From Nitrospirota bacterium (GTDB taxonomy: Bacteria; Nitrospirota; Nitrospiria; Nitrospirales; Nitrospiraceae): DNA of 64,000 bases. Shown piece by piece: positions 5,962 through 57,477 of the stretch; the first letter of the stretch is position 1; each line of letters starts with the position of its first letter. Below the pieces are notes generated by a model that saw nothing but the letters and a program-made list of their open reading frames with translations, had not been told where the DNA came from and did not search any database. The position numbers and the translations under genes were made by a program. The stretch is from NCBI GenBank assembly GCA_016219645.1, contig JACRLR010000030.1, positions 1 to 64,000 on the forward strand. Direction: 5' to 3'.

Positions 5962-6780
5962 GTGCGTACGAAGACGAAGACTTCTTCCCGCCCGCTGCTT
6001 CTCATGTTTCTTTCCATTCTGGTCATGGCTGGCGTCTTAGTGGGCTTTGGAGTTCCTCTCGTGAGTTCAGAGGGGATGATTATCCGCGCGCGCCTTATCG
6101 AGGGGGAGTTGCCGCTTGGGCCAGAGGATGGCGCCTGGTCCAAGGTATCACCGATGACCATTCCATTGAGTGGTCAAGTAATCACCAGGCCTGTTTGGCC
6201 TGAGCCGACGGTCAGAGCATTAACGGTTCGGTCGTTCCACAATGGTACGGAAATCGCGTTTTTGCTCGAATGGCAAGACAACACGAAAAATGACCGTCTG
6301 ACACCCGGAACCTTTCGCGACGGCGTGGCGATAGGGCTGCCGCTTGGCGATGCGCCCGCATTCTTCTGCATGGGCCAACTCGATCACTACATCAATATTT
6401 GGCACTGGAAGGCCGATTGGCAGAGCGATATTGATCGCCGGGCCGCCAAGACATCCGAGAAAGCTCGAGAAGGTGTACGGACGTTTGAAGTCATTCCACG
6501 ACGGGCCTCTTCGGTCGAGGACCTTATCGGCGGAGGCTTTAGTACTCTGACGACCAAAGAGAAACAGGGTCGTGTCCAGGGGAATGCTGTGTGGAAAGAC
6601 GGGGTGTGGCGTGTCGTCATGCGCCGCCCCTTGGTGAGTGAAGAGCAGGAGAACGAAGCAAAACTGATCCCAGGCCGCGTGCAGACCATATCGTTTGCCG
6701 TATGGAATGGTGAGAATAAGGAACGGAACGGACAGAAGGCTGTTGCGCCTTGGTTCCAGCTTATCATCGACCCAGTCTGA
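5962..6780 (+). CDS. NxrC-like / ethylbenzene-dehydrogenase-type haem-b subunit, exported
   Basis: A 272-residue protein starting at GTG 5962. It has a signal peptide (basic RTKTKTSSRP, then LLLMFLSILVMAGVLVGFG) and a domain resembling the gamma subunits of type II DMSO-reductase-family enzymes (ethylbenzene dehydrogenase haem-b domain). Family hallmarks include GPEDGAWSKV near the N-terminus, APAFFCMGQLDHYINIWHWK around residues 132-151, and a late KDGVWRVVMRRPL strand. In the family, haem b is held by a Met and a Lys. The Met of FCMGQ and a Lys near VWKDGVW are the candidates here. It lies 5.8 kb downstream of nxrB and just before two pentahaem cytochromes, so an electron-transfer role beside nitrite oxidoreductase is the best inference. 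Confidence 0.75.
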   Translation: MRTKTKTSSRPLLLMFLSILVMAGVLVGFGVPLVSSEGMIIRARLIEGELPLGPEDGAWSKVSPMTIPLSGQVITRPVWPEPTVRALTVRSFHNGTEIAFLLEWQDNTKNDRLTPGTFRDGVAIGLPLGDAPAFFCMGQLDHYINIWHWKADWQSDIDRRAAKTSEKAREGVRTFEVIPRRASSVEDLIGGGFSTLTTKEKQGRVQGNAVWKDGVWRVVMRRPLVSEEQENEAKLIPGRVQTISFAVWNGENKERNGQKAVAPWFQLIIDPV

Positions 6781-6788
6781 AAACTCTA

Positions 6789-7001
6789 GCAAGATGCTGA
6801 AAATGGGGGCGAGGTAGCTGGGACGATCCCCGTGCTCGCGCAACGCGCGGCTTCAGAAAGCCCTCGTTGGACGCGCGCAGTTGGGATCATCCCAGCCACC
6901 CTTTATAATGTGATGGTTCGTCTGCGGCCTTGCTTGGGACAAGGCGCGTCTTGGCGCGCCAGGGTTGGGCGGGTGAGAAGTCGCCATTTTGAGCATCTTG
7001 C
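6789..7001 (+). repeat. Palindromic intergenic element, copy A
   Basis: The left end GCAAGATGCTGAAAATGG and the right end CCATTTTGAGCATCTTGC are inverted repeats with one G-opposite-G mismatch. Relative to the other copies this one has paired changes (A with T instead of G with C; AATGG with CCATT) that keep the stem. The interior contains nested inverted arms (TGGGACGATCCC and GGGATCATCCCA) and a block GGCGCGTCTTGGCGCGCC shared with copy B. Confidence 0.85.
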
Positions 7002-7522: not shown

Positions 7523-8829
7523 TGATGTTACGACACAGATGGTGTGTACCACGAATCGCCGGCTTGGCCCTCACGTTCGTTGTGGCCTCCATCAGCCTGA
7601 CCTTCGGCCAGGCCGCTGCAGAGAAGACAGCGGTTCAGCCTCCGGGTGATTGGATGGAGGAAATCGAAGAAGTCTTTATTCGGTCGGAAAATTGTAAGCA
7701 GTGCCATGATCGACACTATGAAGAGTGGAAAGGTGCGCGCGAGCAGACGCCGGATCTCAAAACTTTTGGCCGGGTTGATGCTTCGCTGTTGCATGGGACA
7801 TCGCTGGAGTCTCCGGTCTTCCGGACGGTACTGGGTGTTTGGCTCCAGACCAACCCGACAAGCGACGAGCGTGGTCGCTGTCTCTCGTGCCATGCGCCAT
7901 CAACAACCATCTTTCCTCAGCATACCGACAAGATCGTGGCTCAGGTCCTGGCTGGCACACCGAAAGTGGAAGGTATCGGTTGCGCCTCCTGCCATCTGAT
8001 CAAGCAGGTTGAGCAAACATCAAACTCTCCGCCCTCGTTCAAGATCGAGCCAGGCAAAATGCTCTATGGCCCCTATGCAGACCCTGAGGATAATCTTGTC
8101 CACCCTGCGATGCAATCCGTGCTGTTCCGTGGCGCGAACTATTGCGCATCGTGCCACTTCGACAAGGTTAAGGATGTCACGCAGAAGGATCTGCCAGGCG
8201 AGATCTTGCAGGGGACCGTGTGCCAAGACTGCCATATGGAGCCCTCAACCGGCAGTTCTACCTCAAAGCGCGGTGCCATGACGCGAGCAATTGGTCGCCA
8301 CTGGTTCCGGGGCGTCGTCGTGTCCGGTACCATCCTCAAGAATCGAAACCTACAGGCTGAATGGATGCCCCGCGTGGATCTTGAAACCACCAAGTCTGCC
8401 TCGTCTGTGGAGGGCACAGCGCTGGTGAAAATAGGCAGCCTCCCTCACAGCTTCCCTGATGGCGACCCTGTGCTCAAGCAGTTTTTTCTAGTCATGACTG
8501 TCAAGGATGCGCAGGGCAAAGTGCTGAAGGAAGAGACGAGGCAGTTTGGCTTGCCCTATGACAAGATTCTCCGTGGCCCAATTCCCGATCCCTTTATCAA
8601 GGGGGGCTATACGCGAAAGGTTCCCTTCTTCCTTGCGATTCCATCTGACGCGACTGCGACATCGATTGAAGCGGTGTTGAGCTATGCGTTGATTCCCACG
8701 CCAGAACCGGCGCTCAAGGAGAAATATCTTGCAACGTTGGCGACGGAGAAAGAGCGGGAGAGCGCGAAGAAGATTTTGGATGAGTATACGCAGCCGCGTC
8801 TTCTAACGTACCGGGCCAAAACTCTTTAG
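7522..8829 (+). CDS. Exported pentahaem cytochrome c (c554-like family)
   Basis: A 435-residue protein with a signal peptide (MMLRHRWCVPRIAGLALTFVVASISLTFGQAAA, cut near QAAA) and five CXXCH haem-c sites: CKQCH, CLSCH, CASCH, CASCH and CQDCH. The spacing and flanks (YEEWKG after site 1, CHAPS at site 2, CHLIKQV at site 3, CHMEPS at site 5) match multihaem cytochromes of the cytochrome c554 superfamily. The C-terminal 170 residues lack haem sites and look like a beta domain. It is a periplasmic electron carrier or a subunit of a redox complex. ATG 7522 overlaps the preceding stop (TAATG); ATG 7525 is equally possible. A paralogue follows at 9116. Confidence 0.88.
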   Translation: MMLRHRWCVPRIAGLALTFVVASISLTFGQAAAEKTAVQPPGDWMEEIEEVFIRSENCKQCHDRHYEEWKGAREQTPDLKTFGRVDASLLHGTSLESPVFRTVLGVWLQTNPTSDERGRCLSCHAPSTTIFPQHTDKIVAQVLAGTPKVEGIGCASCHLIKQVEQTSNSPPSFKIEPGKMLYGPYADPEDNLVHPAMQSVLFRGANYCASCHFDKVKDVTQKDLPGEILQGTVCQDCHMEPSTGSSTSKRGAMTRAIGRHWFRGVVVSGTILKNRNLQAEWMPRVDLETTKSASSVEGTALVKIGSLPHSFPDGDPVLKQFFLVMTVKDAQGKVLKEETRQFGLPYDKILRGPIPDPFIKGGYTRKVPFFLAIPSDATATSIEAVLSYALIPTPEPALKEKYLATLATEKERESAKKILDEYTQPRLLTYRAKTL

Positions 8830-9065
8830 CAGGATGCTGAAAAAGGCCACCAGTGGCGTTCTCGGCTCATCAAAATCCTCAACGGGGACCCGGCCGCCTC
8901 ACCACTCGGCGGCGCGCACAAACGTGGTGCTCCTTATTCGTCGCACCGTGCGCCCCTGAGGGTACGCTTCCGGTTTCGATTCGCCTGCGGCCTTGCCCGC
9001 GGAACGGCGCGTCTTGGCGCGCCGGGGTTGGGCGGGTGAGAAGTCTGGATTTTTTGAGCATCCTG
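8829..9065 (+). repeat. Palindromic intergenic element, copy B
   Basis: It begins on the last base of the cytochrome stop codon with GCAGGATGCTGAAAAAGG and ends TTTTTTGAGCATCCTG. The central right half carries GGCGCGTCTTGGCGCGCC and GGGTTGGGCGGGTGAGAAG, nearly identical to copy A and inverted relative to copy D. It separates the two pentahaem cytochrome genes. Confidence 0.85.
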
Positions 9066-9115
9066 GGTCGAGTTTGATATCGGTACTATCTAAGAAGTTG
9101 AAGCAGAAGGACAGC

Positions 9116-12014: not shown

Positions 12015-14069
12015 GTGAGTGATTCCGTGATAATTACGTTTGCCTTAATAGCAGCGGTGACCGGCATCGCATACGGCCTGTATTTGGCCATGTGGGTATT
12101 CAAGCTCGACGCCGGAAACCAGAAGATGCAGGATATTGCAAAAGCCATCCAAGAAGGCGCGAGTGCCTATTTAAACCGGCAATACAAGACCGTCGGTATC
12201 GTTGCCGCAGTGCTATTTGCCATCTTGTGGGGGGCAGGGGCTGTCTCCGACAAGTTCGGCTTATTGACTGCGATCGGATTTTTGATCGGCGCAGGCGCAT
12301 CGTCGGTAGCTGGGTATGTCGGCATGGTCATCGCAGTGCGGGCGAATGTCCGAACAGCTCAGGCCGCCCATCAGGGAATGAATTCGGCGCTGACCGTGGC
12401 ATTCCGCGGCGGTGCGGTGACGGGACTCTTGTTGATCGGATTGGGCTTGCTGGCCATCACCACTTTCTATGCGTTGGCTGCGCAGTTTGCGGGGCAGGAA
12501 CATGCGATCCATGCATTGCTGAGCCTTGGGTTCGGCGGCAGTTTGATTTCGGTATTTGCCCGTGTAGGCGGTGGCATCTATACGAAAGCGGCGGATGTCG
12601 GCGCAGATCTCGTCGGGAAAGTCGAAGCAGGAATTCCGGAAGACGACCCTCGGAATCCGGCCGTCATTGCAGACAACGTGGGCGACAATGTCGGCGACTG
12701 TGCCGGTATGGCGGCGGACCTCTTTGAGACCTACGCAGTGACGACAGTGGCAGCGATGGTCTTGGCGTTCACGCTCTTCAAGGGAGTCAGTGCTCCGATT
12801 CTGTATCCGCTCGCGCTCGGGGGCGTCACGATTTTCGCGACGATTATCGGTATTTTCTTCGTGAAGGTGAGTGAGGGCGGCGAGATCATGACGGCGCTCT
12901 ATAAAGGTTTGTTTGTGGCGGGCGGTATTGCCGCAGTGGCGTTCTATCCTGTGACGAGCACCATTATGGATGGTGTGGGCGGCGTGAGCGGGGTGAGCTA
13001 CTTTATCGCAGCCTTGATCGGCTTGGCCGTGACCCTGGCGCTCGTCTTTATCACCGATTACTACACCTCCAAAAGCTATAATCCCGTGAAGTCCATTGCA
13101 AAGGCCAGTGAAACAGGTCATGCGACGAACATCATTGCCGGATTAGCCGTCGGGATGGAGGCAACAGCCTGGCCAGTGGTGGTGATCGGGGCGGCGATTC
13201 TTTCGAGTTACTGGATCTGCGGTGGTGCGGCATCGGGCGGCTTATATGGAGTGGCCATTGCGGCAGTGTCGATGTTGTCGATGGCCGGTATTGTGGTGGC
13301 GATTGATGCGTTTGGCCCGATAACAGACAATGCCGGTGGTATTGCGGAGATGGCTCATCTCGGCAAGGAGGTTCGGGACATCACTGATCCATTGGATGCG
13401 GTCGGGAACACGACAAAAGCTGTGACCAAAGGCTATGCGATCGGCTCCGCCGGTCTTGCGGCCGTCGTACTGTTCGCTGAATATGCTCGTGAGGTGGCGA
13501 AGGGCAGCGGGGCAAGCACGTTCGACCTCTCCAACCCTTCCGTCCTGGTCGGCCTCTTTTTGGGCGGGATGCTGCCCTTTATCTTCGGTGCTCTCTGTAT
13601 GAAAGCGGTAGGAGAAGCAGCCGGTATGGTGGTGGAAGAGGTGCGCAGGCAATTTCGGACGATCAAAGGGATCATGGAGGGAACCGGCAAGCCGGAATAC
13701 GGGACTTGTGTGGATATCGTGACGCAGGCGGCGATCAAGAAGATGATGGTGCCGGGGTTAATTCCTGTCATTTCGCCGATTATTGTCGGTGTGATCCTGG
13801 GACCGCAGGCGTTAGGCGGCATGCTTGTCGGCAGCATTGTTACAGGGCTGTTCGTCGCCATCTCCATGACGAGCGGCGGCGGTGCATGGGACAACGCCAA
13901 GAAGTTTATTGAAGAGCAGGGCAAGAAGGGGACGGATACCCACAAGGCAGCAGTGACTGGCGACACGGTCGGCGATCCCTACAAAGATACGGCTGGTCCG
14001 GCGATTAATCCGATGATCAAGGTCATCAACATTGTGGCCTTACTCATTGTGTCGCTGATTGTGAAATAG
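12015..14069 (+). CDS. hppA: Membrane-bound proton-translocating pyrophosphatase, K+-independent type
   Basis: A 684-residue integral membrane protein with about 16 hydrophobic helices. It couples pyrophosphate hydrolysis to ion pumping. Substrate-site signatures are intact: [39 protein letters not shown], and late [15 protein letters not shown] with [18 protein letters not shown]. The motif [20 protein letters not shown] carries Lys where K+-dependent enzymes have Ala, which in this family marks K+-independent H+ pumps. The GTG start has a strong GGGAGG site. It would recover energy from biosynthetic pyrophosphate and help maintain proton motive force in a low-energy lithotroph. Confidence 0.95.
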
Positions 14070-16425: not shown

Positions 16426-18612
16426 ATGGTGTACCAAACCGTCACAGAACTCGACCAGCTGCTGGATCGGATTAAAGGCTATTATGCCGATGCCGATCTC
16501 GGCCTCGTTCGGAAGGCCTACGAATTTTCTGCCAAGGCGCACGTGGGGCAACGTCGTCTTTCCGGAGAACCGTATGTTCAGCATCCCATCGCCGTCGCCG
16601 GAGTCCTGACCTCGCTCAAAACAGATGTCACCGCCATCGTCGCAGCATTGCTGCACGATACCCTGGAAGATACGGTCGCAACGCCTGAAGAACTCGAAAG
16701 AGAGTTCGGAAAGGATGTGGTGCATCTGGTCGATGGGGTGACAAAGATCGGCAAAATCACATTTCGGAGTTATGAGGAAAAGCAAGCGGAGAATTTCCGC
16801 AAGATGGTGTTGTCGATGGCGGACGACATCCGTGTCGTTCTCATCAAGCTCGCCGACCGGTTGCACAACATGCGCACCCTGCAGCATCTCCGTCCAGCCA
16901 AGCGGCAGGAGATCGCGCAGGAGACGCTGGAGATCTATGCACCATTGGCCAATCGTCTTGGAATCGGGTGGATCAAGAACGAGTTGGAAGACCTCTGTCT
17001 CAAACACCTGAAGCCTGATGTGTACGAGACATTGCGTGTCCGCGTCGCGAAACGTGACGAAGACCGGCAGCAGTATATTGACGAAGTCCGCCGACTCGTG
17101 CAGAAGGCCATGCAAGAGAACGGGTTGGTCGGAAACGTATACGGACGGCCCAAACATCTCTACGGCATTTACCAGAAGATGCATAAGCAGTCGATTACAT
17201 TCGAAGAGGTCTACGACCTTACTGCGCTGCGGATCGTCACCGATACGAAGATGAACTGTTACGCCGTGCTCGGAGTGATTCACTCAGCCTGGCGGCCTGT
17301 GCCAGGGCGCTTCAAGGACTACATTGCAATTCCCAAATCCAATCTCTATCAATCGCTGCATACGACGGTGGTGGGCCCCAAGGGAGAGCATGTCGAATTC
17401 CAGATCCGCACGGAGGAGATGCATCGTATCGCCGAGCACGGCATCGCCGCGCACTGGAAATATAAAGAACAGGGCCATGTGGCCGATCGTGACAGCAAAG
17501 CTTTCGGCTGGCTGCACCAGTTCGTTGAATGGCATGAAGATTTGACGGATAACCGGCAGTTCATGGACTCGGTGAAGCTCGACCTCTTTCACGATGTGGT
17601 GTATGTGTTTACGCCCAAGGGGGTTGTGAAGGAGTTGCCGAGAGGGTCGACACCCGTCGATTTTGCATTCGCGATTCATACCGAGGTCGGGGACCATTGT
17701 GTCGGAGCCAAGGTGGATGGAAAGATCGTCCCCCTCAAGCATCAACTGGCCAGCGGAGATACGGTAGAAATACTGACCTCTCCCACGCAATCGCCGCACA
17801 AGGACTGGTTGAAATTCGTCCGCACCTCCCGTGCGAAGACTAAGATCAAACATTGGATCAAACTGGAAGAGCAGAAGCGGAGCATTGAGATCGGCCGTCG
17901 TTTACTGGAGTCGGAGTTCCGCCGTCAGGGGATGGCGCCGGCCCGGATGTTTAAATCACCGGAGCTGTTACAAGCCGCTCGCCAGTCGGGGTTCGACAGC
18001 ACCGATGAATTGGCTGCGGCGGTGGGTTTCGGCCGCGTGGCGACATCGCAGGTCATCGGTAAACTCACGGTTCTGTCATCCGGAGCACCGGAACCGGCGC
18101 TGACTCAGGAACGTCCCACCTCGCGGAAAACGGTAGGCGGAAAGAGCGACAGCACCGGTGTGCAGGTCAAGGGGTCTCGGGATCTGCTGATGCAACTGTC
18201 ACGTTGCTGTCACCCTGTGCCAGGCGACCGCATTCTCGGGTATATCACTCGTGGCCGTGGACTGACGATTCATGCTGTCGATTGCCCGAATCTCGAAGCT
18301 CTGGATTATGACAAGGAGCGGTTAGTGGAAGTGGAGTGGGACTCCGCTACCCCCAGCACACACGCAGTGAAAATGTCCATTGTGGCTGTCGATAAGACCG
18401 GCGTTCTGGCGAATGTGTCGTCCGCGATTGCAGAATGTCATGCCAACATCAGTCGTGCTGAAATCACGACGCGTGAGGATCAGAAGGCCATTCTTGATTT
18501 TGTCGTGGAGGTTTCAGATACCCGCCATCTCGACCAGGTGCTGAAAGCTGTTGAGCGTGTTGATGGGGTGATTACGGCGAGACGGATGAGGGCCTGGCAA
18601 GAACGACCCTAG
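16426..18612 (+). CDS. relA/spoT: Bifunctional (p)ppGpp synthetase/hydrolase
   Basis: A 728-residue RelA/SpoT homologue of full length. Domains in order: HD hydrolase (AALLHDTLEDT near residue 75, with LIKLADRLHNMRTL), nucleotidyltransferase synthetase (GRPKHLYGIYQKM, TALRIVTDTK, then GRFKDYIAIPKSN and YQSLHTTVVGP), TGS (VYVFTPKGVVKELPRGSTPVDFA), a conserved Cys-His block (LSRCCHPVPGD), and ACT at the end. The HDxxED residues are intact and the RFKD sequence is the RXKD form of bifunctional enzymes, so both making and degrading the alarmone are predicted. It follows recJ by 11 nt and is closed by repeat copy C. Confidence 0.95.
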   Translation: MVYQTVTELDQLLDRIKGYYADADLGLVRKAYEFSAKAHVGQRRLSGEPYVQHPIAVAGVLTSLKTDVTAIVAALLHDTLEDTVATPEELEREFGKDVVHLVDGVTKIGKITFRSYEEKQAENFRKMVLSMADDIRVVLIKLADRLHNMRTLQHLRPAKRQEIAQETLEIYAPLANRLGIGWIKNELEDLCLKHLKPDVYETLRVRVAKRDEDRQQYIDEVRRLVQKAMQENGLVGNVYGRPKHLYGIYQKMHKQSITFEEVYDLTALRIVTDTKMNCYAVLGVIHSAWRPVPGRFKDYIAIPKSNLYQSLHTTVVGPKGEHVEFQIRTEEMHRIAEHGIAAHWKYKEQGHVADRDSKAFGWLHQFVEWHEDLTDNRQFMDSVKLDLFHDVVYVFTPKGVVKELPRGSTPVDFAFAIHTEVGDHCVGAKVDGKIVPLKHQLASGDTVEILTSPTQSPHKDWLKFVRTSRAKTKIKHWIKLEEQKRSIEIGRRLLESEFRRQGMAPARMFKSPELLQAARQSGFDSTDELAAAVGFGRVATSQVIGKLTVLSSGAPEPALTQERPTSRKTVGGKSDSTGVQVKGSRDLLMQLSRCCHPVPGDRILGYITRGRGLTIHAVDCPNLEALDYDKERLVEVEWDSATPSTHAVKMSIVAVDKTGVLANVSSAIAECHANISRAEITTREDQKAILDFVVEVSDTRHLDQVLKAVERVDGVITARRMRAWQERP

Positions 18613-18616
18613 CCCA

Positions 18617-18787
18617 CAGGATGCTGAAAAAGGAGGCGGGGTAGCTCAGGCGATCCCCGTGCTCGCGGAACGCGCACGATATGAATGTGCTCGTTCGACG
18701 CGCGCAGTTGGGATCATCCCAGCCACCCCTTATAGTGAAGTGATGGCTTGTTGCGGCCTTGCCGGACGAACTTTTTGAGCATCCTGC
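18617..18787 (+). repeat. Palindromic intergenic element, copy C
   Basis: CAGGATGCTGAAAAAGG at the left faces ACTTTTTGAGCATCCTGC at the right, with the same G-opposite-G mismatch. It starts 4 nt after the relA/spoT stop. The interior block CGATCCCCGTGCTCGCGGAA and the later GGGATCATCCCAGCCACCC are shared with copy A. The central GCACGATATGAATGTGCTCG is shared, with one substitution, with copy E. Confidence 0.85.
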
Positions 18788-18801
18788 GTGAGGGGAGCCT
18801 G

Positions 18802-19269
18802 CTAGGGGATTCGGAACTGAAGTTTTGATCCTCGCTGCAGTTTCAAACTCTCAGCTCGCCCTGCTGCAAGTTCTAAGACATAGAGCGCGTCTTCGTTGGG
18901 CCGATATTGCGGGCAGCTATCGTCCGTTCTGGTGCAAATCGGGACGTTTTGTTCCATATGGATAATCTGTTTTTTTTCATTTATCCAGATGAGGTCGAGC
19001 GGGATTTTTGTGTTCTTCATCCAGAACACCCAGGCCTGTGCTTGGGTGAATGTAAAAAGCATGCCCCGGTCCGCATCCAAATGCTCACGGTACATCAATC
19101 CCGTTGCGCGCTTTTGAGGGGTGTCGGCCAACTCTGCCTGAATGATGGCCCCTCCAGGGAGGGTAATCTGGACCAACCCGAGTGTGGCAGGATCGGCCCC
19201 CGCATGTGTGCTGCATGGGGTGGAAAAGAGCAGGATGAAGAAAAGCGCGAATAATCTTGGCCGTTGCAC
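18802..19269 (-). CDS. Exported DUF192 (UPF0127) protein
   Basis: A 155-residue protein. It has a signal peptide (MQRPRLFALFFILLFSTPCSTHA) followed by a DUF192 domain: VQITLPGGAIIQAELADTPQ, RATGLMYREHLDADRGMLF, WVFWMKNTKIPLDLIWIN, and a tail YVLELAAGRAESLKLQRGSK. The family is common and small, and its biochemical role is unknown. The start is GTG 19269. The downstream end lies next to repeat copy C, convergent with relA/spoT. Confidence 0.85.
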   Translation of the reverse strand: MQRPRLFALFFILLFSTPCSTHAGADPATLGLVQITLPGGAIIQAELADTPQKRATGLMYREHLDADRGMLFTFTQAQAWVFWMKNTKIPLDLIWINEKKQIIHMEQNVPICTRTDDSCPQYRPNEDALYVLELAAGRAESLKLQRGSKLQFRIP

Positions 19270-20627: not shown

Positions 20628-22451
20628 TTATAGTGTTCGTTCCAGCTGATCGACCATTCCGTGGATCGTATCAAACCCCGATTGCCAAAAGTCTTCCGAT
20701 GCCATATCGATTCCCAGCTTGGCGAGGATCGTCTGCGGTGACTCGGATCCGCCCGTACTCAGCAAGTCGAGATATTTCGGCACGAACGAGGCCCCTTCTT
20801 TCTGGTACATCTGGTAGAGGGCGAGCACCAGGAGGTTGCCGAAGCTGTAGGCATAGCAGTAGAACGGGCTGGCAAAAATGTGCGGAATGGTCAGCCATTC
20901 CCATTGGAACTCATCCGGGACCTTAATCCTTTTTCCAAACTGCTGTCGCACTTCAGCCAGATAGGTCTTGGCTAGATCTCTCACAGTTGACCCCTGAGCT
21001 ATCATCTCATGGGCCTGTTGCTCGAATTGGACAAAGTAAGCTTGTCGGAGGACCGTGGCATAGATGTCGTCCAGTTGGTTAAGCAGGAGTCCCTGTTTCA
21101 CCTTCTTGTCCCGTTCCTGGTTTATGAGCGTATCGGACAGGATACGTTCTCCGAACACCGAGGCAGTTTCTGCCAGCGGAAGAGTGGAGTGGAAGGTAAA
21201 GATAGAATGCTGCGCCGCCATCATGCCGTGGACCGCATGGCCGAGTTCATGGGCCATCGTCGTGATGTCACGCGCCTCTCCGGTGAAGTTCAGGAGCACG
21301 TAAGGGGCCGTGCCTGGCACGACGCTGTAGCAGTAGGCGCCCCCGATTTTCCCGGGCCTGGTACGCGCATCGATATGTCGTTCAGCCATGACCTGTTCTG
21401 CCAGACTGGCCAATTGAGGAGAAAATCCTCGGTAGGCGTCCAGCACCAGTCGGGCTGCATCCTGATAGCGATAGGATTTCTGTTCTGTGCGATATGGCGC
21501 ATAGATGTGATAGCGGCTCATCGGATCGATCTTGCACAGGCGAGCTTTGATATGGAAGTACCGCTGGAAGATGCCGGCGTTTTTCTGGCAGACCCTCAGG
21601 AGTGAGGATACGGCTTCATCCGGAATGTCGTTGCCGAGGTTACGGGTGGTAATCGGGGAGGCAAACTTGCGCAGTTGCACATTTTCTGCTTTCCAGTCGT
21701 TGACCAAAGTCTTGTAGATTTCGCCCAATAGATCGTGTTGATCGGCATAGACACGATAGAGCTCTCGATAGGCGGCTTCACGCAGTTGCCCTTGCGTGTG
21801 GCGGAGGTAGGCTGTCAGTTCCTCGCGTGTCATCGTCATCCGTTTACCCTTGACGGTGAGCGTGAACACGAAACTGTTCGTGACGACGTCGTACAGCGAA
21901 TGAATTGCGCTTCGGCCTGTGATGTTCTTGATATTGACGATCTTCTCTTCTGGTTCAGAGAGCGTGTGGGGTTGAAACCGGCGAATGGTTTCCAGGTGGT
22001 AACGAAACGTGCCGGTTTCTGTCATGAGCCGGCGTGCGTTACCCTCATCGACGCTCTGCCACCAGAGATCGAAAAATACCATTCGGTTCTGAAGCGCGAT
22101 GATCCGCTCCTCGACCTTCGTCTTAAACGAACGAGCGGCGAGGTTTTTTGTATTTTCCGAGAACCAGAGATAGGCATAGGCGCTGATTCGTGACGAGGCA
22201 GCTGCGATGTCCTCGCTTAGTGTCAGCAGGGGATGAAAGGCGGATACCTCCATGGTCGGGCTGAGGTAGGCACGCGCAGCCTCAAACTGCGCTACTTTGG
22301 TTTCGATTTCTTCTGCCAGGGTCTCGAATCGTTGAACCGGGTTTTCTGCCAGTTGTGAAAGGTCCCAGCGCTCAGCATAGGTGAGCCGCTGCCGTTTTGA
22401 GGAAGAGGTATTGGGAGAGGTCGAATGTTTCCGGCCGATCTTCACTGGCAT
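20628..22451 (-). CDS. pepF: M3-family oligoendopeptidase F
   Basis: A 607-residue zinc metallopeptidase of the PepF/M3B type. The zinc motif HELGH lies in DITTMAHELGHAVHGMMA, around residue 394, with the third ligand Glu in LPLAETASVFGERIL. It also has the family N-terminal helical region (RWDLSQLAENP) and a late FYCYAYSFGNLLVLALY segment. It degrades short peptides in the cytoplasm. ATG 22451 has AAGGAG 9 nt ahead; ATG 22460 touches that site and is less likely. Repeat copy D lies immediately upstream. Confidence 0.92.
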   Translation of the reverse strand: MPVKIGRKHSTSPNTSSSKRQRLTYAERWDLSQLAENPVQRFETLAEEIETKVAQFEAARAYLSPTMEVSAFHPLLTLSEDIAAASSRISAYAYLWFSENTKNLAARSFKTKVEERIIALQNRMVFFDLWWQSVDEGNARRLMTETGTFRYHLETIRRFQPHTLSEPEEKIVNIKNITGRSAIHSLYDVVTNSFVFTLTVKGKRMTMTREELTAYLRHTQGQLREAAYRELYRVYADQHDLLGEIYKTLVNDWKAENVQLRKFASPITTRNLGNDIPDEAVSSLLRVCQKNAGIFQRYFHIKARLCKIDPMSRYHIYAPYRTEQKSYRYQDAARLVLDAYRGFSPQLASLAEQVMAERHIDARTRPGKIGGAYCYSVVPGTAPYVLLNFTGEARDITTMAHELGHAVHGMMAAQHSIFTFHSTLPLAETASVFGERILSDTLINQERDKKVKQGLLLNQLDDIYATVLRQAYFVQFEQQAHEMIAQGSTVRDLAKTYLAEVRQQFGKRIKVPDEFQWEWLTIPHIFASPFYCYAYSFGNLLVLALYQMYQKEGASFVPKYLDLLSTGGSESPQTILAKLGIDMASEDFWQSGFDTIHGMVDQLERTL

Positions 22452-22478
22452 GGGTCGCATCTCCTTCGTTTCGCCTTT

Positions 22479-22695
22479 AGCAGAATGCTGAAAAAGTCAC
22501 TCTTCTCACCCGCCCGACCCCGGCGCGCAAGGACGCGCCTCTTCCCATGCATCGTTCTCGCCTCGAAAGCATCCTCAACGTAGCCCATCGGGACAGAACT
22601 ACGTTAGCAGTTCGGGGCGGGTGGGTGAGAAGATTACGCCTCCGGTGCTTTCGTTAGCTGCGGCCTTGCTGGACGGACTTTTTGAGCATCCTGCT
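22479..22695 (+). repeat. Palindromic intergenic element, copy D
   Basis: AGCAGAATGCTGAAAAAGTC and GGACTTTTTGAGCATCCTGC are the ends, with the shared G-opposite-G mismatch plus one A-C mismatch. The interior arms CTTCTCACCCGCCCGACCCC and GGGGCGGGTGGGTGAGAAG pair with each other. The left one is the inverse of the block found in copies A and B. It fills the divergent gap between pepF and the 22835 gene. Confidence 0.85.
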
Positions 22696-28307: not shown

Positions 28308-28868
28308 ATGAAAGCTCCACTTGCCAAAGGCGTCTTTTTGATCGCAGCACCGTCCTTGCGCGATCCGAATTTTCGGCAGACGGTGGTCTTGCTCTGCGAG
28401 CATGGAGCAGAAGGCGCGCTGGGTGTCGTCGTGAATCGCCCGACGGCGATGTCGGTCTCGGAAGCGTTACCTCAAGTGCCGATCCTTGAAGGTCAACAGC
28501 ACGTCCTCTTCTCGGGAGGGCCGGTGCAAACGAACCAGGTGATGATGCTCTATCGCTTGGATCAATTGCCTGAGAACTCCCATCATGTCTTCGATGGGGT
28601 CTGTCTGGGCGGGGATACCGACATCATCGATCGTATTTTGACCACCAGCGAAGGGCGCGAGGCCTTTCGCGCCTATATCGGGTATTCCGGCTGGGGACCA
28701 GGGCAACTGGAATCTGAAATGCAGACCGGCTCCTGGTTTACTGTTCCGGCAGATCCCAATGCTGTCTTTGCCACAGATCCTGCACGTATTTGGCCGGATA
28801 TGGTCAGCGCCATGGGCGATGAATATCGTCATTATGCAGACATGCCTCTCGATCCCTCCTTGAATTAG
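28308..28868 (+). CDS. YqgE/AlgH family protein (UPF0301)
   Basis: A 186-residue protein matching the UPF0301 family throughout: APLAKGVFLIAAPSLRDPNF, HGAEGALGVVVNRPT, VLFSGGPVQTNQVMMLYR, RAYIGYSGWGPGQLESEM and GSWFTVPADP. The family is very common and its biochemical function is not settled; in some bacteria it affects transcriptional regulation. ATG 28308 is the first in-frame ATG at the conserved N-terminus. The TAG stop overlaps the first two bases of repeat copy E. Confidence 0.92.
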   Translation: MKAPLAKGVFLIAAPSLRDPNFRQTVVLLCEHGAEGALGVVVNRPTAMSVSEALPQVPILEGQQHVLFSGGPVQTNQVMMLYRLDQLPENSHHVFDGVCLGGDTDIIDRILTTSEGREAFRAYIGYSGWGPGQLESEMQTGSWFTVPADPNAVFATDPARIWPDMVSAMGDEYRHYADMPLDPSLN

Positions 28869-29052
28869 CAGGATGCTGAAAAAATGGCGGGGAGTGGCCA
28901 GATGCCCTTCTTGCTCGCAGAACGCGCACGATAAGAATGTGCTCGTTCGATGCGCGCAGTAAAGGGCAGCCTTGGCCACTCCCCTTAAGGGAAGTGTAAA
29001 GAGTCAGAGATTCTCGCGCGGCCTTGCTGACGGCCATTTTGAACATCCTGCT
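28867..29052 (+). repeat. Palindromic intergenic element, copy E
   Basis: AGCAGGATGCTGAAAAAATG at the left and GCCATTTTGAACATCCTGCT at the right are its ends. Nested arms GGGGAGTGGCCAGATGCCC and GGGCAGCCTTGGCCACTCCCC pair internally. The centre GAACGCGCACGATAAGAATG is shared with copy C. It starts inside the yqgE stop codon. Positions 29053-29173, up to the next gene, show nothing recognisable. Confidence 0.85.
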
Positions 29053-40610: not shown

Positions 40611-41150
40611 ATGAACTACTGCAGCGCTTGCGGTGCTCCGGTTACGAAGAAGGTTCCCGAAGGGGACAACTTGCCCCGGTTCGTCTGCGACACCTGCCAG
40701 GCTATTCATTACCACAATCCCAAGATTGTCGCAGGCTGTATTCCGGAGTGGAATGGTGACATTCTCCTTTGCCGCCGCGCGATCGATCCCAAATTGGGTC
40801 TCTGGACCTTCCCTGCCGGCTTCATGGAAATCGGCGAGAGCATTGATCAAGCGGCAGCGCGTGAAACCTTGGAGGAAGCGCGGGCTCAGGTTGAGCGTAT
40901 CTCCCTCTTTGCAGTCCTGAGCCTTCCACACATTGGCCAGGCCTATCTGGTATTTCGAGGGCCGATGAGTTCTCCGGATTTCGGAGCTGGTGAGGAAAGC
41001 CTCGAAGTGCAGCTCTTCTCTCTCAATACCATTCCCTGGGACCAGATCGCGTTCCCTGTGGTCAAGGATGTCTTGCGTCGCTATGTCGAGGATGTGACGC
41101 GGGGCAAGTTCCAGGTGCATGTGGCGAGCCTGCAGGACCGACTCTGCTAG
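40611..41150 (+). CDS. Nudix hydrolase with zinc ribbon
   Basis: A 179-residue protein. It has an N-terminal zinc ribbon (YCSACGAPV and FVCDTCQAIHYHNP) and a Nudix domain with the box GFMEIGESIDQAAARETLEE. The layout resembles NADH-pyrophosphatase-type and related nucleotide-sugar hydrolases, but the NudC-specific tail is not obvious. The substrate is probably a nucleoside diphosphate linked to another group. ATG 40611 is at the ribbon start. The stop is followed 6 nt later by a half copy of the dispersed palindromic element. Confidence 0.88.
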   Translation: MNYCSACGAPVTKKVPEGDNLPRFVCDTCQAIHYHNPKIVAGCIPEWNGDILLCRRAIDPKLGLWTFPAGFMEIGESIDQAAARETLEEARAQVERISLFAVLSLPHIGQAYLVFRGPMSSPDFGAGEESLEVQLFSLNTIPWDQIAFPVVKDVLRRYVEDVTRGKFQVHVASLQDRLC

Positions 41151-41156
41151 TTGAGC

Positions 41157-41270
41157 GCAGGATGCTGAAAGGCTATGGCAACCTGTGAGACGAGCGGGAA
41201 AGGCGCGACTGACCAGGTCAAGAGATTCCATGTTATTCTTGTCGCGCCTGTCTCGCTCGTCCCGCCTTTC
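41157..41270 (+). repeat. Half copy F of the palindromic element joined to a GCGAGAC hairpin
   Basis: GCAGGATGCTGAAA (41157-41170) is the left end of the dispersed element, but no right end follows. Instead there is a hairpin with arms GAGACGAGCGGGAAAGGCGC and the region GTCGCGCCTGTCTCGCTCGT, matching at about 20 of 23 positions. This second part is related to 14069-14212. Confidence 0.7.
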
Positions 41271-41282
41271 GCGCGTATTCTG

Positions 41283-56152: not shown

Positions 56153-56563
56153 ATGCCCACAACGACACAATTGGTCATTAAGGGGTTGAGTAGACCTGGC
56201 GTTATGGCTCAAGTGACCCAGGTTCTCGGTGAGGCGAAGGTCAATATCAAAGCCTTTTCAGCCCCGGAAGTGACAGGGGCTGGAAAGCTGAGGTTACTGG
56301 TTGCGGATCTGGAAGGAGCCCGCGCAGCACTGAAAGCAGCGAAGATCAAATTTATGGAAGAAACTGCCTTGCTGTTGAGCCTCGAAAACAAGCCAGGGGC
56401 TCTGAAAGAAGTGGCGGATCTTCTGACCAAGGCTCGTATCAATATTAAATGCGGTTATTGCACTCCCTCCCGCGAGGGGAAACGTGCGATCGTGGTTCTG
56501 ACCGTCTCAAACACAGCCAAAGCGCTCACGATCCTGCAGGATCAATCGCTCGACGAGTTTTAG
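56153..56563 (+). CDS. Tandem ACT-domain protein
   Basis: A 136-residue protein built of two ACT domains (QLVIKGLSRPGVMAQVTQVL with GEAKVNIKAFSAPEV, and LLLSLENKPGALKEVADLLT with KARINIKCGY). ACT domains bind amino acids to regulate metabolism. Stand-alone pairs like this are probably sensors acting on a partner enzyme. No DNA-binding part is present. It lies 54 nt after the unknown gene downstream of nrdJ and is closed by repeat copy G. Confidence 0.85.
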   Translation: MPTTTQLVIKGLSRPGVMAQVTQVLGEAKVNIKAFSAPEVTGAGKLRLLVADLEGARAALKAAKIKFMEETALLLSLENKPGALKEVADLLTKARINIKCGYCTPSREGKRAIVVLTVSNTAKALTILQDQSLDEF

Positions 56564-56565
56564 TC

Positions 56566-56714
56566 GGATGCTGAAAAAGTCTGCCAGCGTGATTGGAAGG
56601 TTAAGGCTGAGGCTAAGGTTGAGCAAACAAGAAACTGTTCGACACTTAACCTTAACCTCGACCTAAGCCTTCTCCATTCGCTGCGGCCTTGCTGGACAGC
56701 CTTTTTGAGCATCC
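56566..56714 (+). repeat. Palindromic intergenic element, copy G
   Basis: GGATGCTGAAAAAGTCTGCC and GGACAGCCTTTTTGAGCATCC are the ends, with the G-opposite-G mismatch conserved. The interior is different: arms GGTTAAGGCTGAGGCTAAGG and CTTAACCTTAACCTCGACC pair, built of the word AACCTTA. Similar AACCTTA words occur alone at 42149-42175. It begins 2 nt after the ACT gene stop. Confidence 0.85.
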
Positions 56715-56766
56715 TCCAGTAGTGTCGCCCTATTGTCCCGCACGTGCATACCATCGAAGTTTTCGT

Positions 56767-57477
56767 ATGCCAACAAAGTTCTTCTGCCGTCTGCTGGACA
56801 TATCACGCAGCGCTGCGGCCACCTGGTCTCGCTGCTCAGCCCTTCTTCTCATACCCCTCATGGTCGGTGCCCTGGCTGCTTGCAGCGGTACTCCCAAACC
56901 TAGCTATTTCCCCGGCTATCCTGTTGGATTCGTCGAGCATGGTGTTGCCTCATGGTATGGCCCGGGATTTCATGGGAATAAGACGGCAAATGGAGAGCGG
57001 TATGACATGCATCAGCTCACGGCAGCTCACCGGACTCTGCCATTCGGCTCGATTGCTGTAGTTCGATCCGTGAATACCGGCCGTCAGGTGACCGTCCGTA
57101 TCAACGATCGTGGCCCCTTCGCCAGAAATCGAGTCCTCGACCTCTCGCTCGCTGGCGCACGCGAGCTGGGGATGACAGGGGCTGGAACCGATAAGGTTGA
57201 GTTACGAGTGGTCGGGTATCAAGGGCGGGCTTCTGATATGGGGGTCTTGCGAGTGCAAATCGGGTCATTTTCTGATCAGCAAAATGCCATCAATCTCTTG
57301 GAACGAACGAGACACCTCTACTCAGGCGGCAGGGTTCAGACCGTCGATCTTCCAGAGGGCAGGCGTTATCGAGTTCAGATCGGTCAGTTTGCTAGGGAGG
57401 CCCAGGCAGAAGTGGCTGCGTCCTATTTCGAATCCTCCCTCGGGCTCCAGGCCTATGTATTTCGCGATGACTCGTAA
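56767..57477 (+). CDS. rlpA: RlpA-like septal lytic transglycosylase lipoprotein with SPOR domain
   Basis: A 236-residue protein. The lipoprotein signal ends in GALAACSG. A double-psi beta-barrel follows (VEHGVASWYGPGFHGNKTAN, MHQLTAAHRTLPFGSIAVVR, VTVRINDRGPFARNRVLDLS), then a C-terminal SPOR domain (LRVQIGSFSDQQNAINLLER, YRVQIGQFAREAQAEVAASY). RlpA cleaves denuded glycan strands at the division septum, and SPOR targets such glycans. ATG 56767 is the first start outside the repeat; a longer frame from 56689 begins within repeat copy G. Confidence 0.9.
   Translation: MPTKFFCRLLDISRSAAATWSRCSALLLIPLMVGALAACSGTPKPSYFPGYPVGFVEHGVASWYGPGFHGNKTANGERYDMHQLTAAHRTLPFGSIAVVRSVNTGRQVTVRINDRGPFARNRVLDLSLAGARELGMTGAGTDKVELRVVGYQGRASDMGVLRVQIGSFSDQQNAINLLERTRHLYSGGRVQTVDLPEGRRYRVQIGQFAREAQAEVAASYFESSLGLQAYVFRDDS

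Follow-up and report, generated by a model that had tools for sequence, protein, structure and literature searches.

A Nitrospira family of small palindromic repeats at gene ends, very probably non-autonomous transposons moved by IS5-type transposases

The window considered here, the whole 64,000-nt stretch of contig JACRLR010000030.1 that was analyzed, contains six complete copies and one half copy of a dispersed palindromic element with a left arm, L, and a right arm, R (Table 1). All seven had been picked out in an earlier sequence-only reading, and all were found again, with boundaries at most 3 nt off the earlier ones. The end pattern, with up to 3 mismatches allowed, matched the window 14 times, compared to a mean of 0.20 in shuffled sequence; the match at 12128, near the start of a predicted gene, is probably due to chance. 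Copy A starts 8 nt past the TGA of an ethylbenzene-dehydrogenase-like gene (6004-6780), the half copy starts 6 nt past the stop of the gene at 40824-41150, and the L end of the copy at 22477..22694 faces the start of an M3-peptidase gene (20628-22451, minus strand).

Table 1. Copies of the element and associated features in the window
Feature	Position	Element as re-called	Strand	Remarks
Copy A, CTAG flank and element	6786..7001	6789-7001	+	L arm 6789-6805, R arm 6985-7001
Copy with TTAG flank	8826..9066	8829-9066	+	TAG at 8827-8829 is the stop of a multihaem cytochrome gene (7564-8829); R' lost
Copy just past the TAG of the RelA/SpoT gene (16426-18612)	18616..18787	18616-18787	+	R' remnant, AGCCTG followed by CTAG, at 18796-18805
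CTAG beside the R' remnant	18802..18805		.	CTA (18802-18804) is the TAG stop of a predicted convergent gene, 18802-19176
Copy with TTAG flank	22477..22694	22480-22694	+	TTCTCACCCGCC-type interior
Copy with TTAG flank	28865..29051	28868-29051	+	TAG at 28866-28868 is the stop of an AlgH/YqgE-like gene (28308-28868)
Half copy, L arm only	41157..41280	half copy at 41157	+	Then a different long palindrome (GGCGCGAC...GTCGCGCC), its end approximate
Copy with TTAG flank	56560..56717	56563-56717	+	TAG at 56561-56563 is the stop of an ACT-domain gene (56204-56563); GGTTAAGG-type interior
Degenerate R' end (AAGTTCTTCTGCCGTCTG)	56776..56793		+	58 nt past R of the copy at 56560..56717, then CTGG

Sorting the right flanks of the copies revealed a third end, R' (GAGTTTTTCCGCAGCCTG), which is followed by CTAG. 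The complete form consists of YTAR, L (CAGGATGCTGAAAAAG), an interior, R (CTTTTTGAGCATCCTG), a spacer of 56-58 nt, R', and YTAR again. The earlier reading was right about the arms L and R; R', the duplicated target, and the precise overlap of the element with stop codons escaped it. Statistics were drawn from 345 kb of stretches around known ends in the element's own genome and from 902 kb of other species. Of the 87 arm pairs taken from the 345 kb, 77 were typed G/C; pairs typed G/G, mostly L joined to R', and a 436-bp C/C pair, a false join, were excluded. From L to R the accepted pairs measure 111 to 389 bp, with about 75 bp more up to R'. The L-to-R lengths cluster (124-128, 150-159, about 172, 199-219 bp, and longer), a consequence of an interior assembled from exchangeable modules, most of them self-complementary. 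Structure prediction has L closing on R in 75 of the 77 copies. R' stands at a fixed spacing in 37 of 130 copies, 33 of which have a spacer of 56-58 nt, and is no longer recognizable in the other 93, nor in copy A. The fixed spacing suggests a spacing constraint. The reverse complement of R' (CAGGCTGCGGAAAAACTC) is identical to L at 13 of the first 15 positions, as in the 15- to 30-bp terminal repeats of MITEs (non-autonomous transposons), and in this orientation R' (CAGGCTGCGGAAAAAC) is a relative of L. The element is non-coding, and L to R plus the stretch to R' is too short for a transposase gene, which again agrees with a MITE. R and R' form direct repeats about 75 nt apart. The spacers between them (e.g., L013:1334, L035:1365, and L040:1506) are fixed in length, yet the sequences of the subfamilies could not be aligned by eye. 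In the copy behind the RelA/SpoT gene, the CTAG of the R' remnant is also the stop of the convergent gene; insertion into a CTAG can preserve stops on both strands.

The family is abundant. In its own genome (3.65 Mb), the end pattern gave 201 + 195 = 396 matches, compared to 6 + 16 = 22 for a reversed-pattern control, and about 200 copies are present. All 32 genomes searched in the genus Nitrospira contain the pattern, the larger ones mostly with 40 to 110 exact ends per strand and two small ones with just 1 to 4 per strand; Nitrospira genomes hold about a hundred or more copies each. Across a phylum-wide sample, the ends are common in Nitrospiraceae and almost missing in other families. Outside Nitrospiraceae, 24 and 11 exact end matches occur in two genomes of one family (G047 and G056, family f17) and 6 in a genome of another (G085, family f19), which may reflect either horizontal spread or contaminated assemblies. 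A 147-bp query had no match among the plasmids and phages searched, and spread by these routes was rejected.

Evidence for transposition came from the flanks. The 4-base flanks outside L and R' resemble YTAR, and the two were identical in 18 of 34 copies, compared to 9.0 expected from shuffling (p below 5e-5), and rarer duplications were matched on both flanks too (CTAA/CTAA, TTAG/TTAG, CTAT/CTAT). Beside R itself, a duplication was seen in 1 of 93 copies, compared to 0.5 expected. R is therefore internal, and its candidacy as a transposon end was rejected. A search for DDE transposases across the genus led to intact insertion sequences (IS) with the same kind of end and flank. These fall beside CTAG or TTAG and end in CAGGCTGCGGAAAAA (loci L260 and L268) or CAGGCTGTTGACAAA (L129, L254, and L255). 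The final 18 nt of the IS at L260 (GAGTTTTTCCGCAGCCTG) are exactly the R' consensus, whereas L agrees less exactly; the L129 element, in which CTAG is followed directly by CAGGCTGTTGACAAA and which encodes a 392-aa protein, is less close than L260 and L268, in which CTAG is followed by CAGGCTGCGGAAAAA. With the NCBIfam IS5 family model, the transposases at L260 and L259 scored 280.6 and 236.5 bits, respectively (cut-off, 140), and that at L129 fell below the cut-offs of IS5_4 (119.6) and IS1182 (214.2 versus 270). CTAG, TTAG, or CTAA stands at most ends, in keeping with YTAR, the 4-bp target of IS5 (PMC10359306). R' ends and CTAG-type duplications are also present in intact IS5-family elements elsewhere in the genus, and the repeats therefore make up a MITE family with L and R' as ends, very probably moved by an IS5-type transposase in trans. 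The earlier reading had named a transposon terminal repeat as what would speak against it, and L and R' did turn out to match one, the sister-genome IS end in CAGGCTGCGGAAAAA or CAGGCTGTTGACAAA beside CTAG.

The parent of L itself is matched less closely. Among the genus IS found, none ends exactly in CAGGATGCTGAAAAA, and the known ends differ from L at 2 or 3 of 15 positions. No transposase gene with these ends turned up among the families searched in the element's own genome, and an autonomous IS there was rejected, as the sole DDE_Tnp_1 match lacks the ends. A MITE in that genome, at L113:1938, has the L129-type end CAGGCTGTTGACAAAG. At another locus, about 100 bp separate a complete MITE with R', R, and L (L260:2778-2977) from an intact element of the IS5 family with related ends. 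In the mechanism that we propose, the element was inserted at YTAR by an IS5-type transposase that acted in trans and bound L and R'. After insertion, R' would decay and the L-R hairpin persist, most simply as a weakly selected structure at transcript 3' ends, either a block to exonucleases or a leaky terminator.

The positions of the copies fit this target. The element starts on the last base of the upstream stop codon (TAG, TAA, or TGA), thereby completing it, or directly behind that codon in 31 of 77 copies, compared to 9.3% expected for random YTAR sites outside genes in either orientation (p 4e-13). The counts are approximate because genes were called with a simple codon-usage script, and the expectation is based on these calls and on loci chosen for holding elements. 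At stop codons, the neighboring end was L in 31 cases and the R side in about 3 (p 8e-7). This orientation bias is not predicted by a near-palindromic target and needs selection or a further mechanism. In 13 copies, L lies at most 45 nt upstream of a start codon, several of these with the target overlapping TAGGAG or CTAAGG. YTAR would be met both at stop codons, where C or T precedes TAG or TAA, and in Shine-Dalgarno sequences such as TTAGGAG and CTAAGG. As the duplication would restore the sequence on both sides, a stop or a ribosome site may be kept and the insertion tolerated, whereas insertions within genes would be lost. The target duplication rebuilds the stop; the target motif therefore coincides with places where duplication restores function.

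Comparison of orthologous sites of the cytochrome gene next to the copy at 8829 agrees with insertion. Among 80 such loci, some are empty, with the stop at the same codon (e.g., L143 and L145), and some are filled, with duplications at L147 (CTAA/CTAA), L218 (CTAG/CTAG), and L157 (TTAG/TTAG); in other species the site is empty or occupied by the MITE or by another palindrome. The duplication at L157 lies directly past R and is the only such case. An example is L145, where the empty site reads ctcTGAGCCGTCGAAG, compared to ctcTAA, the element, and CTAAGCAGCCGAAG at L147. The empty orthologous site supports an origin by insertion.

Position 11 of the arms, where G faces G, had been described as mismatched in every complete copy. 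This holds for all six in the window and is not strictly kept genome-wide: the mismatch was found in 77 of 80 arm pairs in the element's own genome, a set that admitted only G or C at position 11, with pairs lacking C in R set aside as probable L-R' joins, and in 53 of 61 pairs from other species. A change of L to C restored a C-G pair in 3 + 4 = 7 copies of the two sets, respectively. G occupies position 11 of L, of R', and of every clearly preserved IS end listed; in R, all typed copies (80 of 80 and 61 of 61) have C there, read on the strand of R itself. Positions 10 and 12 to 15 are equally invariant; the mismatch is therefore not unusually conserved. It arises because a true end, with G, faces an internal arm, R, with C on its own strand, and all copies descend from such elements. 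L would have to retain the G of the transposase site, and R would be unused as an end. We infer that G11 is needed by the transposase and that C11 marks R as a non-end. Inheritance together with end recognition explains the mismatch more simply than selection for it, and the earlier appeal to selection on the fold is not needed here, since the G of L is common to the IS ends and R'.

The paired substitutions described earlier in copy A are real: G to A at position 4 with C to T opposite, and A to T at position 16, matched by T to A. Such double changes, private to a copy, are present in 10 of the 80 copies. With position 11 excluded, 1,205 of 1,280 cells were paired in the arms of the element's own genome (shuffled maximum, 1,197), and both arms had changed in 12 cells, spread over ten copies, compared to a mean of 2.9 and a maximum of 9 after shuffling. 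For other species, 913 of 976 cells were paired (shuffled maximum, 886), and double changes affected 33 cells, compared to a mean of 7.0 and a maximum of 15 after shuffling; this count of 33 is not independent because orthologues share events. Of the proposed selection on a folded form, the constraint is thus borne out by covariation above shuffles in two data sets, and the need for the mismatch is not. The covariation may reflect either selection for the fold or template switching between the arms.

The stretch past the relA/spoT stop (18612 in the window) was read in 30 species. By coarse motif classes, this slot holds a GGATGCTG element in 14, a TGGTTTG-type palindrome in 11, a GGTGAGCG-type palindrome in 2, and a GGTTAAGG-type one in 1, with 2 unclassed; that is, at least four unrelated palindromic repeat families fill it, whereas its borders and both stop codons are constant. 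Most of these sequences fold far better than shuffles, and the convergent gene has its stop codon within the right border, CTGYTA. That one palindrome has given way to another between unchanged borders suggests some use for a hairpin in this slot, but re-insertion by chance at a site that tolerates it may also account for the pattern. Tentatively, certain Nitrospira gene 3' ends might be selected to hold some long hairpin of any sequence, the GGATGCTG MITE being one interchangeable mobile hairpin. As a gene end, the L-R hairpin resembles a bidirectional terminator. Strong termination is unlikely, because one copy (L012:5665-5790) separates gatB from enolase, with its L end 9 nt before the enolase start. 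Another stands between cytochrome genes otherwise about 30 nt apart. Scores for a promoter in the R-R' spacer or outward from L were at or below those of shuffles, and a promoter inside the element was rejected. The hairpin would best fit a role as a weak terminator or as a barrier against exonucleases at the 3' end.

Several other explanations bear on these observations. Long perfect or near-perfect palindromes are substrates for template switching, in which one arm is rewritten from the other during replication of the palindrome, so that paired changes are one mutational event and not a product of selection. The private double changes fit such single events. However, the mismatch at position 11 of copy A was left uncorrected between the corrected positions 4 and 16, and position 11 of L has changed 11 times, only 7 of them to C, the pairing base, and we consider this explanation of the covariation rather unlikely. 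The hairpins could also be terminators that belong to the host, the L-R hairpin with its A5/T5 tract having been recruited to end transcripts, which would explain both position and covariation. A T tract follows the hairpin on both strands (T5 in 66 of 77 copies), the convergent relA slot has a strong hairpin in nearly all of the 30 species, and the L end lies at most 10 nt past the stop in most codirectional cases. Yet the outer arms, which would be transcribed after the T tract and are unneeded for termination, covary; elements occur between codirectional genes, as between gatB and enolase, without a promoter-like excess inside; many orthologous cytochrome sites lack the element; a terminator scan made no call at the four window copies within the scanned stretch; and the YTAR duplication is left unexplained. 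Host-owned terminators therefore seem quite unlikely.

Two kinds of mobile palindrome were weighed as well. Palindromes of the REP/BIME type, which a REP-associated tyrosine transposase (Y1_Tnp) mobilizes, share with the element an imperfect stem with a constant mismatch and a TAG at the foot, as in GTAG REPs (PMC3733652), and one element lies about 110 bp downstream of the only Y1_Tnp gene in the genome. With 111 to 390 bp in place of 20 to 40, a 4-bp duplication, and ends common to DDE-type IS, such an origin is highly unlikely, and descent from a RAYT was rejected on the single Y1_Tnp gene in the element's own genome. This RAYT-like gene lies at L113:1501-2066, and the element downstream of it is of the CAGGCTGTTGACAAAG type. 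Integron attC-like sites behind genes, recombined as single strands, would likewise present a palindrome past the stop with conserved stem ends, a mismatch, and a variable terminal structure, and 124 to 128 bp is a common size. There is next to no chance of this, since by inspection the ends lack RYYYAAC/GTTRRRY boxes, the copies are scattered over contigs and not in arrays, and the flanks carry a transposition duplication.

The MITE reading links the family to known systems without making it identical to any. Its R' is the end of intact IS5-family elements of the genus, with which it shares the 4-bp YTAR duplication; in contrast to these, it has no transposase gene, its L is 2 or 3 of 15 positions off the known IS ends, and it has an extra internal arm, R, that forms a hairpin with L. 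Other bacterial MITEs (ERIC, NEMIS/Correia, RUP, Nezha, MITEAba12) are likewise short and non-coding, with terminal inverted repeats, target duplication, many copies beside genes, and transcript folding, whereas a third arm resembling a terminal inverted repeat at a fixed 56 to 58 nt, swappable palindromic interiors, and exact overlap with stop codons set the Nitrospira family apart from these. SPRITE elements of Streptococcus pneumoniae also resemble a rho-independent terminator but differ in sequence, host, and parent; pneumococcal repeats nest in one another (PMC10969869). In GTAG REPs, the foot of the element gives TAG stops to flanking open reading frames (PMC3733652), as here, but these are 20 to 40 bp long, linked to tyrosine transposases, and without target duplication. 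MITEs, IS5, and stop-supplying palindromes were thus already known (PMC10969869, PMC3733652). At the gathering score, Rfam had no matches in the window, and a known RNA family was rejected. A search of the open literature, with ISfinder and subscription journals outside its scope, for the end sequence and for Nitrospira repeats found no description of the family. The earlier statement that no named family has these ends therefore stands, and as far as the papers searched and Rfam show, these are previously undescribed small non-coding transposons of Nitrospira.

Nitrospira carry out nitrite oxidation and complete nitrification worldwide, and the repeats should be masked in gene annotation, operon prediction, and binning of their genomes. 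The family would be an unusually clean case of transposon life in a dense genome, the target motif coinciding with stops and ribosome sites and the duplication rebuilding what the insertion interrupts, and comparison across species offers a direct test of mobile hairpins becoming working gene ends. Other long palindromes are also genus-wide. Examples beginning TGGTTTGTTTGG, AAGGTTAAGGCTGAGG, and GAACGGTGAGCGATGAAC lie at the cytochrome stop in L182 and L147 and after the relA stop in L223-L252; they consist of imperfect 4- to 6-nt repeats, occupy the same slots, and replace MITE interiors or whole arms.
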